Assembly (NCBI GenBank): GCA_012837715.1
Contig: DUQR01000021.1
Location: 1-64,000, forward strand
Source: Bacillota bacterium
GTDB taxonomy: Bacteria > Bacillota > UBA4882 > UBA10575
Direction of reading: 5' to 3'
DNA: 64,000 nt
Shown: one piece after another, positions 3,027 to 50,714 of the stretch
How positions within the stretch are numbered: the stretch's first letter is position 1
Layout: each line of letters opens with the position of its first letter
Program-made: the position numbers and the translations under genes
Notes under the pieces: model-generated
Told to the model about the DNA's origin: nothing
The model's input: only the letters and a program-made list of their open reading frames with translations
The model's database searches: none

Positions 3027-4655
3027 ATGATGAATCGTCGAAAATGGATCCCGCTGCTTTTTGTTATCACAGTAATGATCTTGGCTGTTGCTTTGCCGGC
3101 CTTCGCGCAGGAAGGAGCAGACGGCGAACAGAGCAGGGTGTACGGTACCTTTTGGTCGCTTTTACCACCTATTATTGCGATTGCCTTGGCCCTCATCACC
3201 AAGGAGGTGTATAGTTCCCTTTTTATCGGTATCATTTGTGGCGCTTTGTTACATGCCAACTTCAATCTGCTTGGCGCCTATAACACCATGTTTACCGAAG
3301 GCTTTATTTCCGCCTTGGCGGACAGTTGGAACGTGGGTATTCTCATCTTTCTAGTGGTTTTAGGCACTATTGTCTGTCTGATGAACAAGGCGGGCGGTTC
3401 GGCCGCCTATGGCGAATGGGCCAAAGAAAAAATCCGCTCCCGGAAAGGGGCAATGCTCGCCACCTTCGGTCTGGGTATCCTGATCTTTGTGGATGACTAC
3501 TTCAATTGTCTGACCGTTGGCAACGTGATGCGGCCGATCACGGATAAGCACAAGATTTCCCGGGCTAAACTCGCCTATTTGGTGGATGCGACCGCCGCTC
3601 CCATCTGTATGATTGCGCCCATCTCTTCCTGGGCCGCGGCGGTGGTCGGTGTGGTGGAGGGCTATAACGGCTTCGAACTCTTTATTCAAGCCATCCCTTA
3701 TAACCTGTATTCCCTCTTGACCATGGCCATGATCATCATCATCACTTTATTGGGCATTGAATATGGACCCATGCGGAAGCATGAGGAGAATGCGATCTAC
3801 AAAGGAGATCTCTACACTACACCCGACCGCCCCTATGAAGGGCAAGACGGCGAGGTGTCGGTTGGAAAAGGAAAGGTCAGGGACCTGGTTATTCCGGTGC
3901 TGATCCTGATTGTCCTCTGTATTTTGGGGATGGTTTATACCGGTGGTATCCTTGAAGGGGAGAATATAATCAATGCCTTCGCCAACTGTGATGCTTCCCT
4001 CGGTCTGTCGCTAGGTTCGTCCCTGGCCCTCATTATTGTGATCATCTATTTTATCCTCCGGAAAGTGCTCACTTTCAACGAATGTATGGCCTGTTTCCCC
4101 GAGGGCTTTAAAGCGATGGTCCCGGCGATTTTGATTCTGACTTTTGCTTGGACTTTGAGTGGGATCACCGGCATATTGGGGGCGAAAGAATTTGTCAGTG
4201 GTATCTTTGCCGGTAGTGCGGCCGGCCTGAAGATGCTGCTGCCGGCGATGGTCTTTGCGGTGGCGGTCGGGATGTCCTTCGCCACCGGTACTTCCTGGGG
4301 AACCTTCGGGATCCTGCTGCCGATTGTGGTGGCCATGGGTCTTGAGGGGGAATTGCTGATCATTTCGGTCTCCGCCTGTCTGGCCGGGGCGGTCTGTGGT
4401 GACCATTGCTCCCCGATCTCCGACACGACGATCATGTCCTCGACGGGGGCGATGAGTAACCACATTAACCATGTGGAGACCCAGCTTCCTTACGCCTTAA
4501 CGGTGGCGGCGGTCTCCTTTGTCGGCTATATCCTTGCCGGTTTCATCCAGTCGGCTTGGATCGTGCTTCCTCTCTCCCTGGTGATGATCTTTGGTGTGCT
4601 CTATATCATTAAATTAAGCCAAGGGAAGAAGGGATCTGTTTCCCTTACCCAATAG
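3027..4655 (+). CDS. NhaC-family transporter, predicted lysine importer (LysW type)
   Basis: A 542-aa polytopic membrane protein of the NhaC Na+/H+ antiporter superfamily. It begins with a hydrophobic segment ending in LPAFAQ, which may be a cleaved signal or the first helix. Family signatures include the segment VDDYFNCLTVGNVMRP, GTSWGTFGILLPIVVAMG, and CGDHCSPISDTTIMSSTGA near the C-terminus. The gene is monocistronic behind a lysine riboswitch. NhaC-family members under L-box control have been proposed in comparative genomics as lysine transporters (LysW), so lysine uptake is a better guess than pH homeostasis. The two adjacent ATG codons at 3027 and 3030 both lie behind GGGAGG. The transporter family is secure; the substrate is an inference from the riboswitch. 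Confidence 0.88.
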   Translation: MMNRRKWIPLLFVITVMILAVALPAFAQEGADGEQSRVYGTFWSLLPPIIAIALALITKEVYSSLFIGIICGALLHANFNLLGAYNTMFTEGFISALADSWNVGILIFLVVLGTIVCLMNKAGGSAAYGEWAKEKIRSRKGAMLATFGLGILIFVDDYFNCLTVGNVMRPITDKHKISRAKLAYLVDATAAPICMIAPISSWAAAVVGVVEGYNGFELFIQAIPYNLYSLLTMAMIIIITLLGIEYGPMRKHEENAIYKGDLYTTPDRPYEGQDGEVSVGKGKVRDLVIPVLILIVLCILGMVYTGGILEGENIINAFANCDASLGLSLGSSLALIIVIIYFILRKVLTFNECMACFPEGFKAMVPAILILTFAWTLSGITGILGAKEFVSGIFAGSAAGLKMLLPAMVFAVAVGMSFATGTSWGTFGILLPIVVAMGLEGELLIISVSACLAGAVCGDHCSPISDTTIMSSTGAMSNHINHVETQLPYALTVAAVSFVGYILAGFIQSAWIVLPLSLVMIFGVLYIIKLSQGKKGSVSLTQ

Positions 4656-11695: not shown

Positions 11696-11832
11696 CTGCC
11701 TCCCCCACTCTTTCAAGTAATGTTGTAATTTTAACATACAAAGATGTCGGTATTATGTCAAATAAAAAAGCAAATCCTGGCCAGGAGGCTAAATCTTGAC
11801 GGGCCTTCCTTTTTAACGCGGACCAGGGTTCA

Positions 11833-12522
11833 TTATTCCTGATAGACACAGAATTGGTAGCCCAGTCCGCGGAGAGTTTTTACTTCACCTTCGGTCTTTG
11901 GCCAAGCGCGGAGGGTTTTCCGGATGCGCTTGACCGCCAGGTCGACCGCCCGCTCACTCCCCTTATAGTCAAGGCCCCAAACCTCCGTAATCAACTGTTC
12001 CCGGCTGAAAGTCTGGTTAGGATGGCGGGCTAAGAAAAGGAAAAGAGAGAGGTCGCGGGGGATAAAGGAGAGGGGAACACCTTTTAAGAAGACGGCATGG
12101 GCTTGAAAATCAATCTTCAGGCTTCCATACTGCCGGGTTCCGGGGTTTTCTAAAATCCGGGGTGAACGGCGTAAAACGGCCTTGACCCGGGCGACCACTT
12201 CTTCCCCGTAAAACGGCTTGGTAATATAGTCGTCGGCTCCCCGGTTAAGTCCAGTTACTCTCTGTTGGGGTTGGCTTAAGGCGGTCAAGATAATGACCGG
12301 GCAGGAACTATGCTTCCGGATTTCCTTTAAGATACTCCAACCGTCCCTTTTGGGTAGCATTAGGTCAAGGAGGACAAGGTCCGGCGCGAAAGCGGTGAAT
12401 TTGCGGAGGGCCTCTTCTCCGTCAAAAGCCTGTTCCACTTGAAAACCGGCTTTTACCAGGTCGGCCGTTAAACGGCGGGAAATGCCGACTTCATCTTCGA
12501 CGACTAAAATGGTTTGACTCAC
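11833..12522 (-). CDS. Orphan OmpR/PhoB-family response regulator
   Basis: A 229-aa two-component regulator. The receiver domain has the acidic pair E9/D10, phosphoacceptor D53 (LVLLDLMLP) and K102 (DYITKPF). The C-terminal winged-helix domain ends SERAVDLAVKRIRKTL then LRGLGYQFCVYQE. The start is GTG after GGAGGGG. No histidine kinase gene adjoins it on either side, so its partner must be encoded elsewhere. Targets are unknown. Confidence 0.92.
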   Translation of the reverse strand: MSQTILVVEDEVGISRRLTADLVKAGFQVEQAFDGEEALRKFTAFAPDLVLLDLMLPKRDGWSILKEIRKHSSCPVIILTALSQPQQRVTGLNRGADDYITKPFYGEEVVARVKAVLRRSPRILENPGTRQYGSLKIDFQAHAVFLKGVPLSFIPRDLSLFLFLARHPNQTFSREQLITEVWGLDYKGSERAVDLAVKRIRKTLRAWPKTEGEVKTLRGLGYQFCVYQE

Positions 12523-12752: not shown

Positions 12753-13358
12753 TTAAGGTTGGATGGAGGTGGCACAAGTTTTGAATTCCGCGATCGTCAT
12801 CGGCCTGCCCGCTTTCTCCTTTTTCAGCTGGTGGTAACAGTCTTCGTTGATGGTAAAGTTCAAATCATTACGATACCGCAGCCAGACTTCGTCCAAGTGG
12901 GGAAGCAGGTAGGTGGCAACCGCCTTTTTTGCGCGGGAAATAAAACCATCATTAATAAAGGCGGTGCGGTGTTGGCAGATGGGACAAATGCCGAATTCCT
13001 CTTCTTTGTTACGTTTGAAGATCAGCGGATAAATGGCGCATTCCACCGGTTTAATCCCGGGGGCTTTTCCCAATAGGCAGCGGTTTTGTTGTAAATAGGC
13101 GCAAGTGGCTGCCGGGCTCCAACAGTAGATGAGTCCATGGGCGGTGATAATCGGATCCAGGAGATGTTCCGGATGAATACCGGCCTCCTGCAAAAAGGTC
13201 AGTTCGCCAGGGAGGAGGAAGACGGTGGTGGAAAACCCGCGGCTAGTTTCACATAAACCATCACAACCAAGACAAAGAGTCTCACTGGTATCTCCCTGGA
13301 AGTTTGCGAAAAAATCCTGGTAAAACCGGGATTTGATTAAGTGAAAAGTCTTTTTCAT
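12753..13358 (-). CDS. YkgJ-like cysteine-cluster protein
   Basis: A 201-aa cytoplasmic protein with cysteines arranged like the YkgJ (putative Zn/Fe-chelating) family: CLGCDGLC near residue 30, CAYLQQNRC then PVECAIYPLIF near 115-130, and CPIC near 145. The start ATG at 13358 overlaps the stop TGA of the upstream asparagine-synthetase-like gene (ATGA), so translation is probably coupled and the two products may act together. The cysteines could hold an Fe-S cluster or zinc. The substrate is unknown. Confidence 0.72.
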   Translation of the reverse strand: MKKTFHLIKSRFYQDFFANFQGDTSETLCLGCDGLCETSRGFSTTVFLLPGELTFLQEAGIHPEHLLDPIITAHGLIYCWSPAATCAYLQQNRCLLGKAPGIKPVECAIYPLIFKRNKEEEFGICPICQHRTAFINDGFISRAKKAVATYLLPHLDEVWLRYRNDLNFTINEDCYHQLKKEKAGRPMTIAEFKTCATSIQP

Positions 13359-15071
13359 TTCATCCATTCCTTTATTTTTAAATAATCTTGATAGGTGGTA
13401 AACCAATAAGCCAGATCCGTTAAGGCAAAAAACGCATCCCGTTGGACCCCGTGAACCTTTCCCTTTTTTAAGCGGTCTGTTAAATCTGGCGCTACGAATT
13501 TGGGGAGAAAAGAAGCAAGCCGTTTAATCATTTTTGCCATGTAAACACGGTTGGGGTGTTTGCGCCAAAGTTGAGGTGATTTCTGAAAATAGTGGCTGCC
13601 GTCCGAAGGTTGATGGGTGGTGGGGATGGCGGAGGTTTCCTTTGTATAGTTTTGAAAAAGATGGCTGTAGACTTTGTCTTGGATTTTCAACGGTACGGGA
13701 ATGGTCAGGCTCCACTCAAAAAACGCATAATCAAGAAAGGGGGTGCGGACCGGCCGATTATGGCCGAGAATCCCAAAAGTAGAAAGGGAGATGGCCCGGC
13801 GGGTAAAATTCCTCAGCCCAAGGTAGATCAGGCCGTTGGGGTTACCTTTGATCCGGTCGATCTCGGCGACAACTTTTTTGCGGGCTAATACATTGATCTC
13901 GCGATGGTATTTAGGGCAGACTAGGGATTCGAATCCGGTCTTATACCACCGGAAATAGATCTTTTCAAACTGTTTATACCGTTCTTTTGGCCACAGCTCC
14001 CAGAATTGGGCGGTGATCTCCGAGCCACCCAGGCAAGCGTCGCCACCTAACCCATCAAAGCAGGGGAAGGGTTCTTCCGGCATGCTGGATAAAAGATTAA
14101 CGATCCACGGATGGTAACTGGTTTCGAATTGAACCAGCCGACATTTTCGTTGGTGAAAACGGGCGAAATAGTTGGTTGGCAGGGGTATGTTGTGATGAGT
14201 GGCGCCCAGTAGCGCGGCAACAGCGGCGGCAGCTACGGTATCCGTGGTTAAACCGTAATCTTTATGGGTGGTGTAGGTTAAAAGGTCTACGCCCAGCCGG
14301 TGTAAACCGCAGGCGATCATCCGGGAATCATAACCACCGCTTAACGGGAGAACAACCTTTGAGGCGCCGTTAAGCTGGCGCTCCAGGGCAGCAGTGAACC
14401 GGTCGGGTCCTTCAACCAAAACCTGTTCGAAGGTGACCCGAGGATCCGGTTGCAAAGAAAGATAATTAAAAAAAGGGATAAAGTGGAGCTTGCCCTCGGC
14501 AGCGAAAAAACGGAGGAGCTCGCCTTGGGGGACCCGGCGAATGCCCCGGAAGAGGGTCTCATCGCCAAACAGATGACGGAGGCAAAGGAATTGGCTAACG
14601 GCACTGTAATTCACGGAAAACTTGCGTTTGGAGGTTTTGACTAACCACTGGAGGTTAGTGGAAAAGGCAAATTCGCCCTTGTGGTGATAATAAATAATAA
14701 AAAGGTTTGAGTCCGTAGCGGTCACCGCCCAGCCACAAAAGGCCCTTTTCCTGTTGCCAATAGACAAAAGCAGAACCACATTCTGCCTTGGTCAAAGCGC
14801 GAAGAATTTTTGGCAGACCACTTTCTGTTTCTTCCTGATGGTTTAGTCCAGGGGCGTCCGCGGCCTCGACGAGACCCGGGGCTTTACCTAAGATTAAGGC
14901 TTGGTGTGGAACCGCTTCCCATTCGCTCCCTTTTCTCTCTTGAAGCTGGGCATAACCAACCACGCTATTATCACCAAGGCTAAAATCGAGTCTAGTTATG
15001 TCCTTGGGTAGAAGGGGGGTGTTTATCTTTTCTCCGCTGAATGGGTTGATTCGCCCGGAAAGCGCTTCCAC
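13355..15071 (-). pseudogene. Asparagine-synthetase-like amidotransferase, frameshifted
   Basis: Two overlapping frames together make one AsnB-like protein of about 570 residues. The first (GTG at 15071 behind AGGAGG) gives the N-terminal Ntn domain up to GGDRYGLKPFYY. The second continues YYHHKGEFAFSTNLQWL and carries the synthetase domain with the ATP-pyrophosphatase loop LPLSGGYDSRM. The frames join if one base is skipped in the T/A-rich tract near 14690-14705. That may be a true mutation, a sequencing error, or slippage. The mature N-terminus begins MEALSGRINPF rather than MCGI, so the glutaminase cysteine is missing. This resembles AsnB relatives that form amides or rings without glutamine hydrolysis, such as lasso-peptide cyclases and beta-lactam synthetase. 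The product is unknown. Confidence 0.75.
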
Positions 15072-15117
15072 AATGCTTGCCTCCTGTTTTTCCCCATTAT
15101 ATGTGGGAAAGGAGGTG

Positions 15118-15198
15118 ATGGTTACCGGGAAAGCTAGAGAAAAGAAGGATCCGCTGGAGTGGAAGGTTAAAGCGCTTGCTCATAAAGCAGAAGGGTGA
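15118..15198 (+). CDS. Possible 26-residue basic leader peptide upstream of the ferritin-like gene
   Basis: ATG at 15118 opens a 26-codon frame rich in Lys and Glu (MVTGKAREKKDPLEWK onward). It ends at 15198, just before the ferritin-like start. AAGGAGGTG directly precedes the ATG, but the spacing (about 2 nt) is too short for efficient initiation. It may be a translated leader or a chance frame; no homologue comes to mind. Confidence 0.25.
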   Translation: MVTGKAREKKDPLEWKVKALAHKAEG

Positions 15199-15209
15199 AG
15201 GGGACTTTG

Positions 15210-15683
15210 ATGGAACGGGAAGATTTACTTTTCAAATTAAACTGGTTCTATAGTTTGGAGGTAAGCCAGGTCGACCTCTACCTTGCCCAGAGTAAGCGAT
15301 TCAAAGGGACCTATGAAAGCATCGTCTTTGCGCGGACCGCCGCCGTTGAGCAGCAACACGTCGAGAAGCTTGCGGTGATCATCCGTGAGTTGGGAGGAGA
15401 ACCGCATCAAATCGGTGACGTGATTTCCCCGCTTTTTGGCGGTCTGCTTGGTAAAACACTGGCTTTCACAGGTTTGAAAAACACTTTACAGGGGAATATC
15501 ACCATTGAAAACAAGGCCATGACTGATTATGTGGCTTTGCTTCAGCGGGTAGGCGCCGAGTTCGGTCCGGAACTGCAAACTATCCTCCAACATAATTTGG
15601 TGGACGAAGACGTGCATACCGCATGGTTTGTCCAGCGGCTGGCCGATTATGAGTTGTTAGAGTTGCTTAAGCGCAGTGATTAA
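15210..15683 (+). CDS. Ferritin-like four-helix-bundle protein
   Basis: A 157-aa, mainly helical protein. Residues include LNWFYSLEVSQVDLY (first E), FARTAAVEQQHVEKL (E-x2-H), NITIENKAMTDY, and LVDEDVHTAWFVQRL (E/D-x2-H). The spacing of E and ExxH motifs is that of ferritin-like di-iron proteins such as rubrerythrin or Coq7 relatives. A role in oxidative protection or iron handling is plausible but not shown. ATG at 15210 follows AAGGGGA; a GTG at 15195 overlaps the preceding small frame. It is divergent from the amidotransferase-like gene, with only 46 nt between the GTG there and the first possible ATG here. Confidence 0.7.
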   Translation: MEREDLLFKLNWFYSLEVSQVDLYLAQSKRFKGTYESIVFARTAAVEQQHVEKLAVIIRELGGEPHQIGDVISPLFGGLLGKTLAFTGLKNTLQGNITIENKAMTDYVALLQRVGAEFGPELQTILQHNLVDEDVHTAWFVQRLADYELLELLKRSD

Positions 15684-19572: not shown

Positions 19573-20559
19573 TTGGGCTTTGAAGAACAGGTCTTTCCGT
19601 TTTTGACGCTTAGACTCCGGCGGGCGCTAGAAAACTTACGCCGGGTGGTCCCGGGGCAATGGGTGAAGTTGGAAGAGATCCGTCTGCGGGCCGAAAAGCC
19701 CCTCCAGGTGGAGATGGGCGCGTCCTGGTTGGTCACTGCCAGCGGCGAACTGACGGCAGAACCGGAGAAGGCTTTAATCATCAAGACCGAAGATGTGCAG
19801 CGGACTTTACAGTTAATGGGGGAAAATTCCTTTTATACGCTGGAGGAAGAGTTTAAAGCTGGTTTTATAACCTTGGCGGGAGGACACCGGGTCGGCCTGG
19901 CCGGTGAGTGCCTGGTGGAAGGCGGCAGGCTTTGTCGGCTGAAGCGGGTGACCAGTTTGAATATACGGATTGCCCGGGAATTGAAGGGGATTAGCCGCGT
20001 TCTGCTCCCGTGGTTAACCCGGGCCGGGCGGCCGCTGCGGACAATCATTATTTCGCCGCCCCAAGCCGGAAAGACCACTCTTTTACGGGATCTGATCCGT
20101 TGTTTCAGTAACGGGGAAGAACTGTCGGCTCCGGTCAAGGTTGGCCTGGTGGATGAACGGGGGGAAGTGGCGGGCAGTTTCCGGGGGGTGCCCCAGTTAG
20201 ATGTAGGGATCCGTACCGATGTGCTGACCGGCTGTCCGAAAAGGGTGGGGGTTTTTCTTTTATTACGTTCGATGGGTCCGCAAATGATTGCCACTGATGA
20301 GATCGGCCGTCCCGGGGACTTGGATTTGCTCGAGGAAATTCTCAATACGGGAGTGGGCTTTATCACCACGGCGCACGCCTGGGATACGAAGGATTTTGCC
20401 CTCCGCCCCTCTTTACAGCGGCTCTGGGTTCGGGGTCTGGTGGAACGGGTGGTGATCTTAAGTCGGCGTCTAGGCCCGGGAACGTTGGAGGGGGTCTGGG
20501 ACGGACGCGCGAAGGAACCAATCTTTTCCCAAGTTCAACGTTTGGAGGTCAGGAGATGA
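19573..20559 (+). CDS. spoIIIAA: Stage III sporulation protein AA (ATPase)
   Basis: A 328-aa secretion-type ATPase of the SpoIIIA-SpoIIQ channel that links mother cell and forespore after engulfment. The Walker A motif is SPPQAGKTTLLRDLIR (about residues 161-176). Downstream are VGLVDERGEVAGSFRG and MIATDEIGRPGDLDLLEE (Walker B region). The N-terminal half contains SFYTLEEEFKAGFITLAGGH, typical of SpoIIIAA. Start is TTG. The stop overlaps the next start by 4 nt. First gene of a complete eight-gene operon. Confidence 0.96.
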   Translation: MGFEEQVFPFLTLRLRRALENLRRVVPGQWVKLEEIRLRAEKPLQVEMGASWLVTASGELTAEPEKALIIKTEDVQRTLQLMGENSFYTLEEEFKAGFITLAGGHRVGLAGECLVEGGRLCRLKRVTSLNIRIARELKGISRVLLPWLTRAGRPLRTIIISPPQAGKTTLLRDLIRCFSNGEELSAPVKVGLVDERGEVAGSFRGVPQLDVGIRTDVLTGCPKRVGVFLLLRSMGPQMIATDEIGRPGDLDLLEEILNTGVGFITTAHAWDTKDFALRPSLQRLWVRGLVERVVILSRRLGPGTLEGVWDGRAKEPIFSQVQRLEVRR

Positions 20560-21071
20560 AGATGATCGGCGCCCTGTTAGTGATCGCTGGCGGCGGGTTG
20601 GCCGGGTGGGTTTATAGTACCCTCTTGAAAAAAAGACTAACTTTGCTGGAAGCTTTGATCCAGGCTTTCCAGTGGTTGGAGACGGAGATTGGTTACGCCA
20701 GTGTGCCGTTGGGCGAGGCCTTTACAACGATCAGCGGTCGCGCGCAGGAGAAGGTGAAACCGATCTTCGGGGCGTTTACCGCCGGGTTGAATAGCCGGGC
20801 GGGGTTAACCGCCGATGAGGCCTGGCAGCTGAGTTTAGAGCAAAACCGGGAAGCATTGCCCCTTATAGCGGAAGATTGGGCGATCCTGGCCGATTTTGGC
20901 CGTACCTTGGGCACGACCGACCGGGAACATCAGGTCACCGCGATTCGCCGGACGTATGAGCGGCTAAAACACCAAGCAGCCGGGGCGGAGGAAGAGTATA
21001 AGAAGAACGAACGTCTCTACCGTTATCTGGGGATTGCCGGTGGCGCGTTGGTGGTTCTGATCTTTTATTGA
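20556..21071 (+). CDS. spoIIIAB: Stage III sporulation protein AB
   Basis: A 171-aa membrane protein with an N-terminal helix (residues 3-22), a helical GspF-like middle part (LLEALIQAFQWLETEIGYAS, VPLGEAF), and a C-terminal helix ending ALVVLIFY. It is thought to be the inner-membrane platform of the SpoIIIA channel. ATG overlaps the spoIIIAA stop. Confidence 0.93.
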   Translation: MKMIGALLVIAGGGLAGWVYSTLLKKRLTLLEALIQAFQWLETEIGYASVPLGEAFTTISGRAQEKVKPIFGAFTAGLNSRAGLTADEAWQLSLEQNREALPLIAEDWAILADFGRTLGTTDREHQVTAIRRTYERLKHQAAGAEEEYKKNERLYRYLGIAGGALVVLIFY

Positions 21072-21132
21072 CTGGCATGATCCAGCGGTGTTGTCAACCG
21101 GAAGCGGGCCGGAAAGGGGAGGGAAGAAAGAG

Positions 21133-21333
21133 ATGATGCCTGAGGTGGACTTGATTTTCAAAATCGCTGGCGTGGGGGTTTTAGTCCTTTTACTCAATAT
21201 CCTCTTTAAACAGGCGGGAAAAGATGAATATGCCTATATACTCACTTTGGTCGGGGTGGTTGTGGTCTTTATTGTCGCGATTCAGATGATCCAAAGATTT
21301 TTCCAGGAGGTCCGGGCGGTCTTTGGTTTATAA
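21133..21333 (+). CDS. spoIIIAC: Stage III sporulation protein AC
   Basis: A 66-aa protein with two membrane segments (IFKIAGVGVLVLLLNILF and ILTLVGVVVVFIVAIQMI) separated by KQAGKDEYAY, the family hallmark. The length matches other SpoIIIAC proteins only if translation starts at the ATG pair at 21133/21136, which follows GGGGAGGG; a longer in-frame opening at 21088 is rejected. Confidence 0.93.
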   Translation: MMPEVDLIFKIAGVGVLVLLLNILFKQAGKDEYAYILTLVGVVVVFIVAIQMIQRFFQEVRAVFGL

Positions 21334-21348
21334 CAGGGGTGAGGGTCA

Positions 21349-21732
21349 GTGGATATTCTCCTCTTTCTCGGCATCACGCTGGTGTCCTTGGTTTTGATTC
21401 TTATTTTGCGCCGGGATTACGAAGAGTTTGCGGTTTTACTCTCCACCATGGTGGGGGCGGTGATTATGCTGCGTTTGGTCGGCCGTTTAACGGAGTTGAT
21501 CGGCGCTTTTAATTACTTAGCAGAAAAAGCCCAGATTAATTCGGAATACCTCGCGGTAATTTTTAAGGTGATGGGAGTAGCTTATGTGGCCGGGTTTGGC
21601 GGGCAGATCTGCCGGGATGCCGATGAAAATGCGCTGGCGCTCAAATTGGAACTGGCGGGGAAGATCATCATTCTCTTTATGGCGGTCCCGGTGATGGTGG
21701 CGATTTTGGAAATGGTCCTCCGGATCTTTTAA
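21349..21732 (+). CDS. spoIIIAD: Stage III sporulation protein AD
   Basis: A 127-aa membrane protein, paralogous to SpoIIIAC in its N-terminal half, with four hydrophobic segments. AYVAGFGGQICRDADENALA is the conserved SpoIIIAD loop. Start GTG behind a GGGGTGAGGG site, 15 nt after spoIIIAC. Confidence 0.93.
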   Translation: MDILLFLGITLVSLVLILILRRDYEEFAVLLSTMVGAVIMLRLVGRLTELIGAFNYLAEKAQINSEYLAVIFKVMGVAYVAGFGGQICRDADENALALKLELAGKIIILFMAVPVMVAILEMVLRIF

Positions 21733-21886
21733 GGTCTAATTAAATTTTTCCGTTGTAACCATGAAAAGAAATTCAGTCATGAGTTGGGATGGACCATGAC
21801 AATGTTCAAGCAAAGGCGGGCGAAAAACCAGCGCTGTTTTCTTGGTAAAGGACAACGTAATAAGCCCCGCTAAAAGGAGGATTGGT

Positions 21887-23062
21887 ATGGTGGGCAGGAA
21901 AGGCCGATCCCGGTGGCTGGCGGGGTGTATTGGTCTCTTGTTTGTGCTGGCTTGCCCCGCGCAGGGGCAGGAGCTTAATCCGGTGGCTGCGGTTTTGGAT
22001 CAGGAATTGGCGGCCTTGGATCTGGGCGCGCTCACTTCCTTCCTCGCCCGTTTGGACGGGGAGACTCAGGAGCTTTTACCCCAGTTTGATCTGAAAAGTT
22101 GGGTGCAGGGGGGGATGAAGCTGGATCTGGCCCAACTGTTAAGGAAGTTTACCAACTTTTTAGGCCGGGAGGTTGTGGTCAATCTTCATTTGTTAGGGAG
22201 ACTGGTTTTACTGGCGGTGATCGGCGGGATCTTGAGCCATTTCCAGCAGGCTTGGGCCGGGGAGAGGATTGGGGATCTGGTGGCCAATATTATCTATCTA
22301 ATTCTGATGGGTTTCGCGGTCCAAAGCTTCACCACTACCATGCGGTTGGCCTATACGACGCTGGAACGGGTGAACGATTTTGTACTGGCTATTTTACCCT
22401 CGATCTTTACCTTGCTTGCCGCCGCCGGCGGAATCACGCTGACCACTGTCTGTCATCCGGTGGTTTGGGGTGGAACCGGGATCGTGATCAGTCTGGTTAA
22501 AAACTTGGTGCTGCCCCTAATTTTATTGGCCGGGATGATCGGGTTGGTCTCCCGTCTGGCGCAAGGTTTTGCGGTAAGTAAATTGGCCGAGGTTTCCCGG
22601 CAGGGCGCGGTGATCATCCTTACTTTTCTGGTCACCATCTTTTTAGGAATCATTTCTTTGCAAGGGGTGACGGTCGCTGCTGCCGACGGCCTTGGTCTGC
22701 AAACGGCTAAATTCTTAACGGGGAATCTGGTGCCTCTGGTCGGCGGGGTTGTCGCCGACAGCTTGGAGTTGGCGGCCGGGTGCTCTTTATTAATCAAAAA
22801 CGCTCTTGGCGCCTTTGCCGCTTTAGGCGTGGTCTTACTCTGCGTTTATCCGGCCTTAAAAATTTTGGTCGTGGCTTTTATTTACCGCTGGGCGGCGGTT
22901 TTTGTGCAGCCGCTGGGGCAGAACCGGTTGGCCGAATCCCTGCAGGAGATCGGAAAAACGGTGATGGTGATCTTTGCCACCCTGGCGGTGGTCAGTCTGA
23001 TGTTCTTTTTCTGTTTGACCATTCTGGTTGGCCTCGGCAACATGACCGCGATCATGCGCTAA
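21887..23062 (+). CDS. spoIIIAE: Stage III sporulation protein AE
   Basis: A 391-aa multi-pass membrane protein with a cleavable-looking signal sequence (ending ACPAQGQE), a short extracytoplasmic region and about seven hydrophobic helices. VVGGVVADSLELAAGCSLLI is a conserved segment. It is proposed to form the channel's export-like membrane component. ATG at 21887 follows AAGGAGG with 6-nt spacing; an in-frame TTG at 21842 is less likely. A 154-nt gap separates it from spoIIIAD, larger than elsewhere in the operon, and no promoter was recognised there. Confidence 0.93.
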   Translation: MVGRKGRSRWLAGCIGLLFVLACPAQGQELNPVAAVLDQELAALDLGALTSFLARLDGETQELLPQFDLKSWVQGGMKLDLAQLLRKFTNFLGREVVVNLHLLGRLVLLAVIGGILSHFQQAWAGERIGDLVANIIYLILMGFAVQSFTTTMRLAYTTLERVNDFVLAILPSIFTLLAAAGGITLTTVCHPVVWGGTGIVISLVKNLVLPLILLAGMIGLVSRLAQGFAVSKLAEVSRQGAVIILTFLVTIFLGIISLQGVTVAAADGLGLQTAKFLTGNLVPLVGGVVADSLELAAGCSLLIKNALGAFAALGVVLLCVYPALKILVVAFIYRWAAVFVQPLGQNRLAESLQEIGKTVMVIFATLAVVSLMFFFCLTILVGLGNMTAIMR

Positions 23063-23095
23063 CGGTAACGGGAGAAGAAGAGAAGAAGCAAGGGG

Positions 23096-23608
23096 TTGGT
23101 CCTGATTAAAGAAGCGCTCAAAGGGTTGGTGGCTTTGATCTTGTTAGCCGGATTTTTAGAACTCCTCCTGCCCGATGACCAAATGCGGAAGTATGGCCAG
23201 ATGGTAGTGGGCTTAATTGTTTTGTTTTCCTTAATTAATATGTTGGGTCAGATCGGCCGGGATTTTTCCTTCAAGTGGCCGGAGGAAGACGGATTAGCCG
23301 CTGCGGGCGCAGAGACTTTGGTAACGGACGGGCTTGAGCTCCGCCGCCGGGGGGAGGAAGAAGCCGCCCAACTGAACACGCCGGCGGTCCAGGCCGGAGT
23401 GGAGGAATTCTTGCAGCAGATCACCGGGAGCAAGGAAGTCCGGGTCCAGCTCCGACCGACGGCGGAAAAGGCAGGTTGGTCGGCGCGGGTGATTATACCG
23501 GACCGGAACGGGGTGCCGGTGGATTTCCTAAAGCGGACGGTGGCTGCTTTATTATCGATCCGTCTCGATCAGGTGGAGGTGGAAGGTGAAGATGAAGGGG
23601 AAAGCTAA
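23096..23608 (+). CDS. spoIIIAF: Stage III sporulation protein AF
   Basis: A 170-aa protein with two N-terminal membrane helices (ALKGLVALILLAGFLELLLP and MVVGLIVLFSLINMLGQI) and a soluble ring-building-like C-terminal domain. The start is uncertain: there is no ATG or GTG near the site. A TTG at 23096 abuts AAGGGG, while CTG (23102) or ATT (23105) would have better spacing from it. It overlaps spoIIIAG by 23 nt. Confidence 0.88.
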   Translation: MVLIKEALKGLVALILLAGFLELLLPDDQMRKYGQMVVGLIVLFSLINMLGQIGRDFSFKWPEEDGLAAAGAETLVTDGLELRRRGEEEAAQLNTPAVQAGVEEFLQQITGSKEVRVQLRPTAEKAGWSARVIIPDRNGVPVDFLKRTVAALLSIRLDQVEVEGEDEGES

Positions 23609-41805: not shown

Positions 41806-43621
41806 AACCGGGGAACTCGGGAAGATAAAAAAAGACGATCGTAAACAGTTGCGGACCGGTTTTCGGCTTTTCTGCTACGTCAGACCCTACTGGAAGGAAC
41901 TGCTGGCGGCGCTGGTGGCGATGATCCTCGTCTCCCTCGTCAATCTAGCCTTTCCTTACCTTTTCGGTAATTATTTAATTGACCAAGTTTTAAATGTAAG
42001 CGGTAATTTAAGGCTCTTAAATACGATCGTGATCGGGGTGCTTTTTCTGGCGTTTTTCAAAGGGATCTTTTCTTATTTCCAACGCTACCTTACCAGCTAT
42101 ATAGGGCAACGGGTCGTTACTAACATCAGGGAAGAGGTTTTTCAGCATCTCCAACGCATGTCGGTGGGTTTTTTGGAGGCCCAACGGATTGGGGAGTTGA
42201 TCGCCAGGATCACCAGTGATGTGGAGCAGATTCAGACTGTTGTTTCCTCTGGCGCCATCTCCGTATTTTCCAACTCTTTTATGCTGGTGGGGATTATTAC
42301 CGCAGTTTTAGTGATTAACTGGCGTTTAGCCTTAATTACACTCACGGTTTTACCGCTCATTGTTTATGTGGTCTCCAAAGCGGGCCATCGGATCCGGGGG
42401 ATCAGCCACCGGGTGCAGGAAAAAATCGCCGATTTGACGGCGGTCCTCCAAGAGACCTTCACCGGAATTCGAGTGGTAAAAGCTTTCACCATGGAAAAAC
42501 ATGAAGCCAAAAGGTTTGCCCGGGAAAATGAAGCCAGTTTTAACGCCAATATGAAGTCGGCGCAGGCTTTGGCTTTTTTAACCCCCATCGTTGATATCCT
42601 TTACGTGGTGGGTTTAGCCCTTGTCCTCTGGTTTGGGGGGATGGAAGTTCTACGCGGGCGCTTGACCACCGGGCGTCTGGTGACTTTCTTTACTTATATT
42701 GGGATGCTGGGCACCCCTATTACCAGCCTGACCAATACCATCAACTCTTTCCAACAGGCTTTGGCTGGCGCCGATCGGCTTTTTCAGATCTTGGATCACG
42801 AGGAAGATTTGAAGGATAAACCCAAAGCCATTGCCTTACCTGAGATCAGGGGGGAAGTGGAATTTCAGAAGGTCAGTTTTGGGTACCGTCCGGGTCAAGA
42901 GATTCTTTCCGGGATTAATTTAAGGGTCGCTCCCGGTGAAATTGTGGCTTTGGTGGGGCCAAGCGGGGCGGGGAAGACCAGTCTGGTTAATTTAATCCCC
43001 CGTTTTTACGTGCCGACCAGCGGAGCGGTGCTGGTTGATGGTTATGATCTCAGAGAGGTAAAGGTTTCTTCCCTTCGTCGGCAGATTGGGCTGGTGCCCC
43101 AGGAGACGATTTTATTCGGGGTTTCAATCCGGGAGAATATTGCCTATGGAAAGCCGGAGGCGACGGAGGAGGAGATTATTACCGCGGCTATGATGGCCAA
43201 TGCGCATGAGTTTATCTCTGCTTTGCCCGAGGGGTATGACACGTTAGCGGGGGAACGGGGCTCCAAATTGTCCGGTGGGCAGAAACAGCGGATTGCCATC
43301 GCCCGGGCTTTGTTACGGAACCCGCGTATTCTCATTTTAGACGAAGCCACATCGGCTTTGGATACGGAGGCGGAGCGTCTAGTCCAAGAAGCGTTGGAGC
43401 GGTTATTAAAAGGGAGAACTACCTTTATTATTGCCCATCGCCTTTCGACGGTGCAAGGGGCGGACAAGATTGTCGTTCTTTCCCGGGGTAAAATCGTCGA
43501 GGTTGGCACCCATGAGGCATTACTCCAAGCCAATGGTTTATATGCGAAAATGCATGGTGATGGTAGAATGTTCAAAAATGACGAAGAAGAATCGGATGAA
43601 AGTAATGGGTCAATCAATTAA
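41786..43621 (+). CDS. msbA: MsbA-like ABC exporter (lipid A/LPS flippase candidate)
   Basis: A 611-aa half-transporter: six membrane helices (about residues 30-310), then an ATPase domain. Walker A is ALVGPSGAGKTSLVNLI, the signature KLSGGQKQRIAIARALL, Walker B ILILDEATSALD and the H-loop IIAHRLSTV. It acts as a homodimer in the inner membrane. Neighbouring LPS genes suggest lipid A core flipping, though many MsbA-like exporters move other substrates. TTG at 41786 after AAGGAAGG is preferred over starts inside the upstream gene. It converges with the glycosyltransferase gene with a 4-nt overlap. Confidence 0.85.
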   Translation: MTTIETKTGELGKIKKDDRKQLRTGFRLFCYVRPYWKELLAALVAMILVSLVNLAFPYLFGNYLIDQVLNVSGNLRLLNTIVIGVLFLAFFKGIFSYFQRYLTSYIGQRVVTNIREEVFQHLQRMSVGFLEAQRIGELIARITSDVEQIQTVVSSGAISVFSNSFMLVGIITAVLVINWRLALITLTVLPLIVYVVSKAGHRIRGISHRVQEKIADLTAVLQETFTGIRVVKAFTMEKHEAKRFARENEASFNANMKSAQALAFLTPIVDILYVVGLALVLWFGGMEVLRGRLTTGRLVTFFTYIGMLGTPITSLTNTINSFQQALAGADRLFQILDHEEDLKDKPKAIALPEIRGEVEFQKVSFGYRPGQEILSGINLRVAPGEIVALVGPSGAGKTSLVNLIPRFYVPTSGAVLVDGYDLREVKVSSLRRQIGLVPQETILFGVSIRENIAYGKPEATEEEIITAAMMANAHEFISALPEGYDTLAGERGSKLSGGQKQRIAIARALLRNPRILILDEATSALDTEAERLVQEALERLLKGRTTFIIAHRLSTVQGADKIVVLSRGKIVEVGTHEALLQANGLYAKMHGDGRMFKNDEEESDESNGSIN

Positions 43622-44526
43622 CCGTTGTTTCCTAATGCTTCCTTCAGACCTTGGACGTAAGCATAGCTCCGCATGATGCTGAGGAGCAAGTTGAAAGCGC
43701 CTTTACAGCCCCGTCTTTCGAAAAAAGCCAGGAGTTTGGTCGCCCCCGGCCGTTCCGGCCAGCGAAAAGGGGTTAAGAGTTTGATCCAGGCAAAGAAGAC
43801 GGGTGTAATGAGGGTCGTCATACGCACACTAAAGGAAGGATGTTTCCGGTAGAAGAGGACGGCTGTGTGTCCCCGCTCTTTCTCTTTGTTGAGGAGGGCC
43901 GGAATATTTTCCAGCCTGACCGGAGCTTGCACATGGTAACTCCAGGCGCTAAGACTTTTCACCCGCTTCAAGCCGAGGAGGCGCAGACGGTGGCCGAGCT
44001 CCAAATCTTCCCAGCCGTATTCGACAAAGCTCTCATCGAAGAGACCGGCGGCGATCAGCTTTTCCCGTTCAACAGAGACATTACCGGTGGCAAAAAAGGC
44101 TCGGGAAAAGTCATTGTATTGGGGCGCTTTTGTGTTGGGATCGGCCGGGACGGGCGTGTTCAGCACAGAACCGTTGACGATGAGGCCTGGACGGGTATGG
44201 GCCGCTAAATGACTGGCTACGAATTCGCGGCGGACAATCATATCACTATCCAAGTAGATGACGAGCGGGGCCTTGGCGGCTAAGGCCCCGGTATTACGGG
44301 CTTTGGCCCGGCCGGAACGTTCCAGCCGGATATACCGGAGCTCGCCGGGAGCTTGTTGCTGAAGGTCGGCGATAATTTCCGGGGTCTGATCGGTGGAACC
44401 ATCATCCACGACAATAATTTCGTAGGACCCGGGGGGAGCCGTTTGGTTAAAGAGCGCCCCTAAGCAGTGAGGAAGGAGCTTCCCGGAATTATAAGCAGGG
44501 ATGACCACACTGGCTTTTAAGCCCAC
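43618..44526 (-). CDS. Family 2 glycosyltransferase
   Basis: About 302 aa, GT-A fold. ASVVIPAYNSGKLLPHCLGA begins the domain, with IIVVDDGSTDQTPEI, GRAKARNTGALAAKAP, and the metal-binding DxD in VIYLDSDMIVRREFV. ESFVEYGWEDLELGHRLRLL is the ED-containing acceptor region typical of chain- or core-sugar transferases. A C-terminal hydrophobic stretch suggests membrane association. GTG at 44526 is 8 nt from GGAG; an in-frame TTG lies 6 nt further up. It probably contributes to LPS or surface polysaccharide. Confidence 0.85.
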   Translation of the reverse strand: MGLKASVVIPAYNSGKLLPHCLGALFNQTAPPGSYEIIVVDDGSTDQTPEIIADLQQQAPGELRYIRLERSGRAKARNTGALAAKAPLVIYLDSDMIVRREFVASHLAAHTRPGLIVNGSVLNTPVPADPNTKAPQYNDFSRAFFATGNVSVEREKLIAAGLFDESFVEYGWEDLELGHRLRLLGLKRVKSLSAWSYHVQAPVRLENIPALLNKEKERGHTAVLFYRKHPSFSVRMTTLITPVFFAWIKLLTPFRWPERPGATKLLAFFERRGCKGAFNLLLSIMRSYAYVQGLKEALGNNG

Positions 44527-44648
44527 TTTCAAAACTCCTTTTGCGTTTAATACCCGATCGGGCTTTTGGCATCGTCTTTAGATAATGCATGTTAAAACGG
44601 TATATTGTAACGGAATCTTGTTTACGGTTGCAACGTAAAAAGCTTTGC

Positions 44649-45905
44649 TTAGTTTGGCGAGGACATGCTTGTCCCATCAACCGTGGGTTCAGCATTCGCG
44701 CAGTCGTTTTTACTAATCTCCAGCGTGTAGAGGCCGACAACCAAACCAAGGAGGAGCCAAAAACCAATGCCAATATTGGTTTTCCAAATCGGTAGATCAA
44801 CTTGTTGGTGAATGAGGATTCCGACGAGGGTCGCAAAGATCCCCTGATAAAAAGGGTTCCCGGTTTTAGCCAACTTATAAGCCAGAAAGTAAGTGAGGGC
44901 AAAGGCTAATAAAAAGAGGAGGAGACCGATTAAGCCAAATTCGGCGGCGATTTGCAGGAAAATATTATGGGCAAAAGCAAAGATATCATCCTTGTCCGCG
45001 GCTGGAGGGGTGTAATCCAGATAAACGGAAGGGAAAACTCCTAGTCCTATTCCGAGAAGGGGTTTATCCTTAATCATGTTTAAACTGGCTTGCCAGATAT
45101 GGATTCTGGTTCTATTCCCCTCTTTTTCCAACGAAAAAATGGACAAAAAGCGGTCGTTCAGTTTCGGGTTGGTCAGGAGGAAACTACCGGCAATGAGGAT
45201 GATCACCAGAAATAAAAGGGTTATTTTCTTTTTATAATTAAAAAGGATGAAGACGAATGACATACCGGCAAAACCAAGCCAAGCCCCGCGGGATTGAGTA
45301 ACCAAGAGCGCGAAGGCGGAGGCTGCCAAAAAGGGAAAAGCAAAATAGGAGTAGGGTTTTTCTTTAAATAAGAGGAAACCCATGCTAACTCCGGTGTACA
45401 GGATGATCAAGGTTCCGAGGCTGTTGGGTCCGCCGAAGAGGGTGGCACGGGGCAGGTTTAGGCTGAAATAACGGATCAGGGTTACCACAGAGACAATTAT
45501 CCCGCCAAGACAGAAGAGGAAGAAACAATTGGTTAAAAAATTCCGGTCATAACCAGCCAGGCGCTGGCCGCCGAAGAAATAAAAATAAAAGACTAAAATC
45601 AAGGCCAAGGTTAGTAGGAAAGAGTTTATGGGTTTCTTAGAGAAAAAACTATTTAAAACCAAGTAGACCAGTAGATAAATAAAGAGCTGGCTGGTTCGGC
45701 TGGCTAACACCGGAGGGGTTGGCAGGATTGGTTTCGTTTTTCCCCGTCGGAAAAGGGTAATTAGTTTAGCGCTGAGTAGAAATAAAAGACCAAAGTAAGG
45801 TTGGCCGCTGGGGATTAAGGCAAAAGTTAAGTACCAACCGATCTTTTCGATGCGGTCCTGAAGTTTGGTTCCGGTGTGGGGCAAAGTCGAAGTGGACATC
45901 GGCAT
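44649..45905 (-). CDS. O-antigen ligase / polymerase family protein (WaaL/Wzy-like)
   Basis: A 418-aa polytopic membrane protein with about 11-12 hydrophobic helices. The Wzy_C motif region is visible: VTQSRGAWLGFAGMSFVFIL, then a large extracytoplasmic loop with RTRIHIWQASLNMIKDKPLL then GIGLGVF, and FAFAHNIFLQIAAEFGLIGL with the conserved His. It would join or polymerise lipid-linked glycans on the periplasmic face. ATG at 45905 follows GAAGGGAAG. Its 5' end lies 126 nt from the divergent lpxB-like gene. The 122 nt between this gene and the glycosyltransferase show nothing certain. Confidence 0.85.
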   Translation of the reverse strand: MPMSTSTLPHTGTKLQDRIEKIGWYLTFALIPSGQPYFGLLFLLSAKLITLFRRGKTKPILPTPPVLASRTSQLFIYLLVYLVLNSFFSKKPINSFLLTLALILVFYFYFFGGQRLAGYDRNFLTNCFFLFCLGGIIVSVVTLIRYFSLNLPRATLFGGPNSLGTLIILYTGVSMGFLLFKEKPYSYFAFPFLAASAFALLVTQSRGAWLGFAGMSFVFILFNYKKKITLLFLVIILIAGSFLLTNPKLNDRFLSIFSLEKEGNRTRIHIWQASLNMIKDKPLLGIGLGVFPSVYLDYTPPAADKDDIFAFAHNIFLQIAAEFGLIGLLLFLLAFALTYFLAYKLAKTGNPFYQGIFATLVGILIHQQVDLPIWKTNIGIGFWLLLGLVVGLYTLEISKNDCANAEPTVDGTSMSSPN

Positions 45906-46031
45906 TCTTCCCTTCAAAATATATTGAAGAACGTGGACAAGCGTTGAAAGACAAACCAATTATAGCATATCTTGTAATAAGGGGAAAGCGCGGGAAAATA
46001 AGCCAAACAAAAAAGGAATGGAGTTGGGAAG

Positions 46032-47327
46032 ATGACAAAACCGCTGGATATCATCATCACCGTCAATAGTCCGGGCGAAGTATCCGGATTGCTAAAACCG
46101 GTTGTTGCGGCTTTAGCGACTTTCGCCTGGCCGTATCGGATCTTTGTTTTTATTCCTCCTTGTCCTTTTGCCAGTGGGGCGGAAAGCCGGGTGGTGGAGG
46201 AAATACCCCAAGTCAACCAAGTAATCGGTGCGCAGGAGACGGTCCGTTTCATTCTGCGCGGGAGATTACCGGCCAAATTCACCCCAGCCGGAAAGGGGAT
46301 TGTCCTTTTTCTCGGGGGCGATCTGACCTATGCCGCCTTCTTAGCGAAAAGACTCCGGTATCCGGCGGTTGCCTATACGGAAGGGCTGACCAACTGGGCG
46401 CGCTCTTTTGCCCGGTTTGCCATGGCTTACCCGTGGATGGTGGATAAAGGAAAGAATCCGGCGGTGAAAAAGAAAACGGCGGTGATTGGCAATATAATGT
46501 TAGATGCGATCAAACCGGAGTATTCAAAAGAAGAGATGAAAAGGCTCATGGGGAATGAGCAAGCTCCCGGGCTCCTGCTGCTTCCGGGGAGTCGACCGGC
46601 CCATTTCCAATATATGCTTGCTTTCTATGTGAAAACGGTCGAAAAAATCAAAGCGCAAATGCCAACGCTGGCGACGGCGGTGAGCATTTCTCCCTTTGTG
46701 ACCGAAGAACAACTGAGGGCCGCCCTTTCCGGCTGGGGAGCTAAGGAATGGGGACTGTCCGCCACTTATCATCCCGCGGGGGAACACACTTCGACCACTG
46801 CTGGTTCGTTGAAGGTGTTAGGTGAGATTAAAACCGAGACCGGTGTGGGGATTCCCTGCTTCCATCATCAGCAGTATGCCTTAATGAACTGGGCGGATCT
46901 GGCATTGACGATTCCTGGAACGAATACGGTGGAACTAGCGGCCTTGGGTGTGCCGTTGCTGGTCTCGATCCCTTTAAACCACCCGGAAGAGATTCCCCTC
47001 GAAGGGTTGGCCGGTTTGGTCGGCGGGATTCCCCTCTTGGGTAAAGCGCTGAAAAGGAGATTGGTGCCTAAGTTTCAGGCCAAGATTAAGTTTACGGCTT
47101 GGCCCAACCGCTTAGCTGGGGAGCAGATTGTTCCGGAATTAATTGGGCAGATCTTCCCCGACGAGGTGGCGGAAGTAGCGATTAAGATGTTACGGGATGA
47201 ATCAGGGCTGGCGAAAGCTGGGCAACGCCTCCAAAAAGTTGTGGGTGAGCCGGGGGCAGCCCAACGGTTAATCGATATCCTCGAAGAAGTGGTCGGCTCC
47301 ACTTATCACGAGGGCTTTACTAGATAA
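46032..47327 (+). CDS. Lipid-A-disaccharide synthase-related protein (LpxB-like)
   Basis: A 431-aa GT-B protein related to LpxB, which joins UDP-diacylglucosamine and lipid X. The LpxB-like start is TVNSPGEVSGLLKPVVAAL (LpxB has GExSGD). LLLLPGSRPAHFQYML corresponds to the PGSR nucleotide-sugar region, and TIPGTNTVELAALGVPLLV to the donor-binding GT(N/A)TLE block. It differs from canonical LpxB in length and in the loss of the GD pair, so it may be the local LpxB or a related glycosyltransferase. The 5' end is divergent from the ligase gene; a terminator follows it. Confidence 0.75.
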   Translation: MTKPLDIIITVNSPGEVSGLLKPVVAALATFAWPYRIFVFIPPCPFASGAESRVVEEIPQVNQVIGAQETVRFILRGRLPAKFTPAGKGIVLFLGGDLTYAAFLAKRLRYPAVAYTEGLTNWARSFARFAMAYPWMVDKGKNPAVKKKTAVIGNIMLDAIKPEYSKEEMKRLMGNEQAPGLLLLPGSRPAHFQYMLAFYVKTVEKIKAQMPTLATAVSISPFVTEEQLRAALSGWGAKEWGLSATYHPAGEHTSTTAGSLKVLGEIKTETGVGIPCFHHQQYALMNWADLALTIPGTNTVELAALGVPLLVSIPLNHPEEIPLEGLAGLVGGIPLLGKALKRRLVPKFQAKIKFTAWPNRLAGEQIVPELIGQIFPDEVAEVAIKMLRDESGLAKAGQRLQKVVGEPGAAQRLIDILEEVVGSTYHEGFTR

Positions 47328-47358
47328 CTACTCCGGAAACTTCCGGAGTAGTTTTTTA
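47326..47358 (+). terminator. Terminator after the lpxB-like gene
   Basis: Perfect arms 47326-47338 and 47341-47353 (the centre opens to form the loop), followed by TTTTT. It begins within the last codon of the gene, so transcription of the downstream 821-aa gene must start anew. Confidence 0.9.
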
Positions 47359-47396
47359 TAACCTCTTTTATCTACCTGTCTAAACAGGAATTACCT

Positions 47397-47427
47397 TTAT
47401 CTTCAACGCGGAAGGTATGCTATAATC
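47397..47427 (+). promoter_or_regulatory. Possible promoter for the 821-aa membrane protein gene
   Basis: TATAAT near 47421-47426, with TTATCT about 18 nt upstream. The -35 match is weak, but an independent promoter is expected after the terminator at 47326-47358. Confidence 0.5.
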
Positions 47428-47447
47428 GTAACCATGGAGGAGATATT

Positions 47448-49913
47448 ATGTTAAGTATCTTCCGCGAAGGCTTTATGAAGGATTTACTAATCTGGTTTTG
47501 TCTCAGTGTGTTGCTGGCTTCTCTGGTTGCCGCCGGGGTAGGCTTAGTTGCCGACCGCTATTTTGCCAAAACCGTTGAGGGTTTGATTGGCGATCAGGGT
47601 GAATATGATCTCCTTTTTCAAGTCCGGACCGACTTGAAAGAAACGGCGGTGGCGCGGATCCGGGAGATTATTAAGGAGAAAGTGCCCGGTTCCACCGTGA
47701 AGGTGGGGGTTAGCGTAGCCGGAAAAACCGCGGTCTTTGTTGGCCTGGCGCCAAAATACCGCACGAAAGCGGTTTATACCAATCTGCCTTCTTACTTTCG
47801 TGATATCCCAGGAAGCGGCGGATTCAGCCTGATGACTGAACCCCGGTTGACTTTGTCGGCGGTTCCCGCTAACGTGGTTGATCTCTTTATTCGGGAGGCG
47901 GAACGGATTCCCGGTGTGCGTTTTGCCTTTCGTGACGGAGGCAGCATTGCGGTTATTCTGGAAAAGGCCGTTAAAATGAAGACGGTCCAAACCGCCCTGG
48001 AAGAAATCTTGGCTAGCTATTCTTTGCTGGAGATCCGGTTTCCTTCCGGTTATCACGTGGAGAACACGATTGAGGTCGGACGTAACTTGAGTGAATTATT
48101 AGCCGGTAAAGGCGGCGTTTCGCTGATCCGGAATGTTACCTCCGGAAAGAGCAGCGATGATCAAGAAGCGCTCATGCTGACCATGGCGGAGATGAAACGG
48201 TTTCTTCTTTCCTACGCCGGGCAGGTGAAAGTGATTCCGGCGCAAGGCGCGAAGCTTCATCCGGGGGATCAGCTAGTCCTCTTTGATGACGAGGAGCATC
48301 CGCGCCAAGCCGGTGAAAAGGTCCATGCCGAAGATGTAATCGTGAAGATCACCTCTGAAGAGCAGGATGGGGCGCTCGCTGGCCTGATTATCCAGGGAGA
48401 TTCGGCCTCTTTGCCGAAGGCGGCCGGCCGGTTGTTGGATGAAAACCAAAAAACCGGGGCTGTGGTAGCCAATATTGTGATCAATAGTCCCAAGCAACAA
48501 CTGGCGGAAGCCTTAGACGAAACCATTAATTTTCTGAGCCAGTTTAATTCCTTTCAAGAGCTGCCGTCCCAAGCCCGGCAAGTGATTACGGCCGCCGAGA
48601 CGATTCAAGCCGCGTTAAACAGCATTAACGGGCTGGGAGCGGACCAGGCCGACCTGGAGAAGCTCGGTAACCTCTCCGCCTTACTAGCCGGAACCGGTAA
48701 CGAGTTGCAGAAGATGGCCGATCATTTGGCCCGGCTCCGTTGGGTAGAAGACCAATTGGCGAAGGCCATCGGCGGTTTGGAAGGGGTTCAGGTCATTACC
48801 CGGTTGGGTTTTATCCCGCGGAATCTGGGTTATTTGGGGGGTTTGGGACAGACCGTCGGCCGTCTGGACGAAGAACTCCAAAAACTGGTGGCTGATTTAC
48901 GGGCCAAAGCACAAACCCTGGATGATTTTATTAACCGATTTAACCCCCTGGTCCAGACTTTATTGGATTGGGAAAAAAAGACCACTAAGTTGGCTGGTCA
49001 GTTAGACCAGATGGAAACCTTATTGGGGGGCAATGGTGGCGCCTTTCAGGCCTTGACCGAGTTGACCGGGATGACCGATCACAGCTTGCGGCAATTTGCT
49101 GAATTTGACTTTGCCGGTCTGCGGGAGGGGTTAGCACCGCTCGAAGCCGGGTTTGATGAATTGCAAAACAATAATTTAATGCTGATCATCGGTGAAATGG
49201 AGAAGATCAAAACCTCCCTTCCGAAACTCAAGGATGAAGAGATCAGTAAGACGATTGGCTTGTTAGACCGTTATCTTGGAGGGGAAACCCTCCCCGGTGA
49301 GAAGGTGGAACTCTTTGTCAACGCCGGATATAACGAGGCGGAAGTGACCCGCATAGTTCATAATTTCTTCGATTCGGACCAGGTCCGGATTCAGGTCTTA
49401 CCGGCGGGAATTCTTCAGCCGGATGTGCGGAACGAGGTCACCCGGTTACTCGGGGAGGTGCAGGGGGTAATTGCGGCGTTGGCCGTCATTATCTTAGCGG
49501 TCTTGATTTTCCTCCAGGACCAGGCGCCGATCCTTGCTTTGCTGCACCATTTGGATTTATTGGTTCCCTACCGGAAAGGCAAAGGGAAAAAGGGGAAAGA
49601 GCTGGTGCTGGACCGGATCTGGCCCGGGCTTTACGCTTCAGGTTTGGGAGCAGCTTGGTTATGGACCACGGTTAAACTGTCGGGCGCCCATATTCCCTAT
49701 TTCCCCAGTCCCTATTTTTTGGTGGTCGGCGCCCTTTTCGGCCTTCTTTTCTACCGGATGGCCGAGAAATTCCACCGGCTAAATCTGGATGAAGTGATTG
49801 CCGGATATGCTCTTGGGTTTAATTTTACCACGGTGATGCGGGAGATCGTGATTCCGGCGGGCCGTCCCGGACTAATGCAGAAACTTAACCGACGGAAGAT
49901 GGTGATGAAATGA
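47448..49913 (+). CDS. Large envelope-spanning ABC-type permease-like protein, unrecognised
   Basis: An 821-aa membrane protein I do not recognise. One N-terminal membrane helix (about residues 13-34) is followed by about 635 extracytoplasmic residues. Residues 50-200 look alpha/beta (VARIREIIKEKVPGSTVKVG, FIREAERIPGVRFAFRDG). Residues 360-640 are long amphipathic helices, probably coiled coil (LSALLAGTGNELQKMADHLA, VGRLDEELQKLVADLRAKAQ). Three C-terminal membrane helices follow at about 673-690, 724-744 and 755-770, and a basic tail. This 1+3 topology is that of FtsX/LolC/MacB permeases. The stop overlaps the start of an ABC ATPase gene (ATGA). YhgE/Pip-like proteins share the helical middle and are an alternative. 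Lipid or lipoprotein movement across the envelope is an inference from position. Confidence 0.75.
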   Translation: MLSIFREGFMKDLLIWFCLSVLLASLVAAGVGLVADRYFAKTVEGLIGDQGEYDLLFQVRTDLKETAVARIREIIKEKVPGSTVKVGVSVAGKTAVFVGLAPKYRTKAVYTNLPSYFRDIPGSGGFSLMTEPRLTLSAVPANVVDLFIREAERIPGVRFAFRDGGSIAVILEKAVKMKTVQTALEEILASYSLLEIRFPSGYHVENTIEVGRNLSELLAGKGGVSLIRNVTSGKSSDDQEALMLTMAEMKRFLLSYAGQVKVIPAQGAKLHPGDQLVLFDDEEHPRQAGEKVHAEDVIVKITSEEQDGALAGLIIQGDSASLPKAAGRLLDENQKTGAVVANIVINSPKQQLAEALDETINFLSQFNSFQELPSQARQVITAAETIQAALNSINGLGADQADLEKLGNLSALLAGTGNELQKMADHLARLRWVEDQLAKAIGGLEGVQVITRLGFIPRNLGYLGGLGQTVGRLDEELQKLVADLRAKAQTLDDFINRFNPLVQTLLDWEKKTTKLAGQLDQMETLLGGNGGAFQALTELTGMTDHSLRQFAEFDFAGLREGLAPLEAGFDELQNNNLMLIIGEMEKIKTSLPKLKDEEISKTIGLLDRYLGGETLPGEKVELFVNAGYNEAEVTRIVHNFFDSDQVRIQVLPAGILQPDVRNEVTRLLGEVQGVIAALAVIILAVLIFLQDQAPILALLHHLDLLVPYRKGKGKKGKELVLDRIWPGLYASGLGAAWLWTTVKLSGAHIPYFPSPYFLVVGALFGLLFYRMAEKFHRLNLDEVIAGYALGFNFTTVMREIVIPAGRPGLMQKLNRRKMVMK

Positions 49914-50679: not shown

Positions 50680-50714
50680 AAACTAGATAATATTTTTGTT
50701 TCGGGGGTGTGTCT

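Follow-up and report, generated by a model that had tools for sequence, protein, structure and literature searches.

The locus considered here raises the question of why a gene resembling the asparagine synthetase AsnB is spread over two reading frames, and whether a living or a decayed gene stands behind this arrangement. It is located in a stretch of 64,000 nucleotides of a Bacillota bacterium (contig DUQR01000021.1, positions 1 to 64,000), referred to in the following as the window. On the reverse strand, an N-terminal fragment of 138 amino acids with a GTG start and a degenerate glutaminase-like domain beginning with MEALSG (positions 14655..15071) ends in a stop codon at 14657-14655. The rest of the gene, also on the reverse strand (13355..14692; 13355-14779 in the mechanical open reading frame listing), encodes what is left of the glutaminase-like domain, followed by the Asn_synthase domain. 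In profile searches, the fragment 14655-15071 matched the last part of the GATase_7 / AsnB glutaminase domain at positions 125-156 of TIGR01536, and the frame 13355-14779 took up the same profile at positions 150-506, with an additional match to the Asn_synthase family PF00733 (3.4e-12). Since the two frames lie on the same strand, overlap, and match consecutive parts of one profile, they represent, as the original prediction had proposed, halves of one gene and not a chance arrangement.

The break itself falls into the tract CCTTTTTATTATTTATTATCACC (14683..14705, reverse strand), and comparison with related genomes revealed how it arose. In all five relatives readable at this place (G013a, G005, G002, G012, and G011), the tract region lacks 4 nt compared to the window and is crossed by an open frame, the N-terminal part forming a single frame with the remainder of the AsnB-like gene. 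This difference indicates a 4-nt tandem duplication (net +1) in the window copy; thus, the break predicted near 14690-14705 was found, but the single base to be skipped there was not. The continuous frame in the relatives also led to the rejection of two genuine genes, one for a small GAT-like protein and one for a stand-alone synthetase. In favour of such a pair, both frames exceed 130 codons, but the break falls within the terminal part of the glutaminase-like domain, and the probability of this reading is close to nil. Programmed ribosomal frameshifting or transcriptional slippage, by which the protein would be restored at the tract, is hardly credible as well: the tract is T/A-rich and both frames stay open around it, but a longer tract or a frame change occurs in none of the five relatives, a conserved slippery element is missing, and the shift needed would be +1 or -2 instead of the common -1 type. 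The slippage site suggested previously was therefore rejected, as the tract is absent from the relatives.

As predicted, the start of the protein lacks a cysteine and the SGGYDS pyrophosphatase loop of the synthetase domain (14324..14341, reverse strand) is kept, the latter in all copies covering the loop. PF00733 scored 47.1 bits for the window (gathering score 21), and 51.6 and 66.6 bits for the intact orthologs. In the alignment, codon 5 of the fragment (Ser; 15057..15059, reverse strand) faces the Cys of MLCGLI / MSILCGVI, the corresponding stretches of the intact orthologs from G011 and G012; in these, the Cys follows the nearest Met at a distance of 2 to 4 residues. At the readable N-termini of the window, G005, G002, and one copy from the G013 bin (G013a), LSG stands in place of LCG, meaning that the N-terminal Cys nucleophile of class II glutamine amidotransferases is represented by Ser in all four. 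Furthermore, profile alignment against canonical AsnB proteins yielded no counterpart of the RGPD-type Arg or the glutamine-binding NGE loop in the shortened N-terminal half. Because the Cys-bearing orthologs also lack the usual glutamine-binding motifs, the glutaminase half had probably become non-functional before the Cys was lost. The description as an AsnB relative without the glutaminase Cys accordingly holds, but the exchange of Cys for Ser is a genus-level trait of an already degenerate domain. In the intact enzyme, the SGGYDS domain would adenylate a carboxylate, and the amide would be formed with free ammonia or an amine substrate; hydrolysis of glutamine is not expected, since the RGPD and NGE motifs are missing in all copies and the Cys is missing in the genus.

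Compared to known systems, the gene shares with AsnB (TIGR01536) a glutaminase-like half followed by the Asn_synthase domain, the SGGxDS loop, and the motif RxPFxDxxFxxxxLxIP. However, TIGR01536 scores across the copies ranged between 55.7 and 107 bits, and the equivalog cut-off of 267.1 bits was not reached even by the intact orthologs (107.2 and 104.1 bits). The window gene has neither RGPD nor NGE, the genus lacks the N-terminal Cys, and the SGEGADE loop of canonical AsnB reads DGLGGDA in the profile alignment. AsnB relatives without the Cys include beta-lactam synthetase, and the lasso peptide cyclase McjC is likewise an asparagine synthetase homolog (PMC5067487). Enzymes of these two types resemble the window gene in being AsnB-type proteins with a presumably non-hydrolysing N-terminal half. 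The match to the McjC-type cyclase model NF033535 was weak (64.5-74.7 bits, far under the 525-bit cut-off). The precursor peptides envisaged in the surroundings of the locus were not found, there being no small open reading frame with a ribosome-binding site in the adjoining stretches, and the B2-type leader peptidase PF13471 was absent from G011 and G012 and appeared only below the cut-off in the genome of the window. A lasso cluster was therefore rejected; otherwise, the gene may or may not belong to a peptide or antibiotic pathway. A defence system was likewise rejected, since none of the PADLOC models matched the AsnB-like protein, its Cys-rich partner, or the neighbouring ferritin-like protein.

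A cassette of two genes, found only in one bacterial family, begins with the AsnB-like gene. The second gene (CxxC_A; 12753..13367, reverse strand) is intact in the window, encodes a small Cys-rich protein of 204 amino acids, and shares 13 nt with the end of the AsnB-like gene, an overlap also present in G012 (locus L032) and G011 (L033). These members of two other genera carry intact AsnB-like orthologs of 580 and 554 amino acids, with 63% and 60% identity, respectively, each followed by the Cys-rich gene. Among 101 relatives, 10 possess the Cys-rich protein, as do 5 out of 398 genomes drawn from the phylum as a whole, and every one of these belongs to the one family; outside of it, searches with the AsnB-like protein recovered only generic AsnB homologs (≤79 bits, compared to 729 for the window). 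No Pfam family matched the Cys-rich protein above threshold (zinc fingers were found below threshold only), no solved relative was recovered, and AlphaFold models built from 2-3 sequences were useless, with mean pLDDT values of 37.6 and 30.8. The AsnB-like gene has no second copy in the genome of the window and was not found among plasmid records, nor was its partner found among phage records. In G005 and G002, a second, diverged Cys-rich paralog (CxxC_B; L036 2150-2764, L037 1176-1793) adjoins the cassette, and it persists without the cassette in G003, G004, and G007.

Upstream of the GTG start, a ribosome-binding-site-like AGGAGG (15080..15085, reverse strand) is preceded by a conserved promoter-like element, GTAACC-N16-CATATAAT (15096..15125, reverse strand). 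All six upstream regions have in common AACC, 16 nt, and C[AG]TAT, followed by an AT-rich end; the search for the element gave a hit with 0 mismatches at 15096-15125, and the extended pattern AACC-N16-CRTATRAT has its single match in the whole genome at this position. AsnO is the sporulation-associated AsnB of Bacillus subtilis, and the cassette resembles it in being an AsnB-type gene of a spore former with an element that would be compatible with a mother-cell sigma factor. To our knowledge, the Cys-rich partner gene has no counterpart in B. subtilis. The spacing of the element is compatible with the sigma-K consensus of this species (PMC517825). As the stringent pattern has just one occurrence in the genome, the element is a weak lead to sporulation control (mother-cell, sigma-K) and does not count as evidence for it. 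The host itself is probably a diderm, spore-forming Bacillota member, as deduced from lipid A / O-antigen-type genes at 43618-51997 (LpxB-like 46032-47327, FabZ-like 51563-51997, and Wzy-like 44649-45959) and a spoIIIA-like run at about 19573-23608.

The cassette is flanked on one side by a divergent ferritin/rubrerythrin-like gene (15195..15683, forward strand), which is kept in most species of the genus, and on the other side by a response regulator (11833..12522, reverse strand). A histidine kinase is not present beside this regulator in the window (11738-11832); it was apparently lost there, since it sits between the regulator and the PPIase gene in G005 and G002. Elsewhere in the window, a lysine riboswitch (Rfam RF00168, 95.7 bits) was detected at 2788-2963; it closely precedes a gene of the Na+/H+ antiporter family (3027-4655) that probably encodes a lysine transporter.

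Detailed analysis of substitution rates indicated that the cassette has a history different from that of its flanks. Between the window and G005, dS was 0.39 in the glutaminase half and 0.21 in the synthetase half, compared to 1.2-1.6 in four flanking genes where unsaturated; the corresponding values for G002 were 0.4-0.6 for the cassette and 1.6 or more for the flanks (overall 0.2-0.6 versus 0.8 to over 2). The trees disagree as well: the window pairs with G006 in the flank tree, whereas the cassette tree groups it with G005 and the copies of the G013 bin, with G002 outside (85% support). Both observations indicate an interspecies exchange of the cassette, which in the window, G005, and G002 apparently entered the same locus. 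The only repeats found around it were short and probably chance matches, with no sign of a transposon or exchange mechanism.

Loss and decay of the cassette were frequent within the genus. G006, the closest species according to the flanking genes, has about 400 nt at the locus and neither cassette gene. G003, G004, and G007 have only the paralogous Cys-rich gene left (about 45-49% identical to that of the window), and G001 carries a broken Cys-rich remnant. In G005, the AsnB-like gene has become fused, through an internal deletion, to the last part of the Cys-rich gene. The AsnB-like gene of G002 is open at both ends, its middle being hidden by a contig gap, and may represent an intact copy without the Cys; the Cys-rich gene there has a shifted start. 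The G013 bin holds two partial copies, one with a 1-nt deletion and a stop, the other with a 5-nt deletion. These copies were counted as genus copies with an uncertain bin assignment: the ArgJ of the bin itself shares 66% identity with that of the window, and a neighbour gene on one of the two contigs (L034 and L035) is 90-95% identical to genes of the window's genus and absent from G008. Judging from these identities, the contigs apparently derive from a different member of the genus, with misbinning or transfer as possible causes. Reversible phase variation, with slipped-strand events toggling the cassette, would fit the position of the window lesion, the G013-bin indels, and the indel in the G002 partner gene at short T/A or A/G tracts, as well as the purifying selection still acting on the gene body. 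However, the tracts are short and differ in each copy, and larger deletions and complete loss occur too, rendering this reading very improbable.

The age of the lesion was deduced from the window gene itself. Its dN/dS values against genus copies were between 0.16 and 0.33 (flanks about 0.04-0.14), and the private codon changes on the window branch comprised 17 nonsynonymous and 22 synonymous ones. These values are far from neutral, indicating that selection acted on the copy until recently and that the lesion is recent relative to the branch. The low dN/dS, together with the conservation of the partner gene, the promoter-like element, and the synthetase loop, would also be expected if the break were an assembly or sequencing error and the organism possessed an intact gene for a full-length Cys-less protein. 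Such an error, also considered in the original prediction, is unlikely: a 4-nt tandem duplication is not a one-base homopolymer error, widespread frameshift errors are not expected in an assembly of 98.68% completeness, and other copies in the genus were independently broken or lost. The recent pseudogene put forward at the same time gains support from the continuous frame in the relatives and from these broken or lost copies. We therefore conclude with considerable confidence that the window gene, which encoded a divergent AsnB-like ATP-pyrophosphatase synthetase and is part of an often-lost, exchanged two-gene cassette, has recently become a pseudogene. On the other side, a single lesion marks the window copy as dead, re-initiation downstream of the stop is possible, and the G013-bin lesions may stem from mixed strains, because their contigs apparently belong to another organism of the genus. 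As a pseudogene, the window copy would give only the 138-aa fragment without the ATP-binding domain, presumably non-functional. The Cys-rich partner gene has a start of its own, from which it may still be translated, but its translational coupling to the broken gene would be lost.

Regarding the intact cassette, it is tentatively proposed, as a rather doubtful scenario, that an AsnB-like synthetase with a dead glutaminase half and a Cys-rich partner of no known family constitute a family-restricted module forming some amide bond, e.g., on a spore-surface or peptide substrate, and that this module undergoes horizontal exchange and recurrent inactivation within one diderm Bacillota genus. The broken copy as such represents ordinary gene decay. 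As a by-product, the analysis brought to light an uncharacterised pair of AsnB-like and Cys-rich genes with intact versions in two related genera, a finding of modest novelty, in which the loss of glutaminase function can be dated to before the decay of the gene. The chromosomal locus, in turn, offers a clean case of repeated emptying and refilling via exchange between species.
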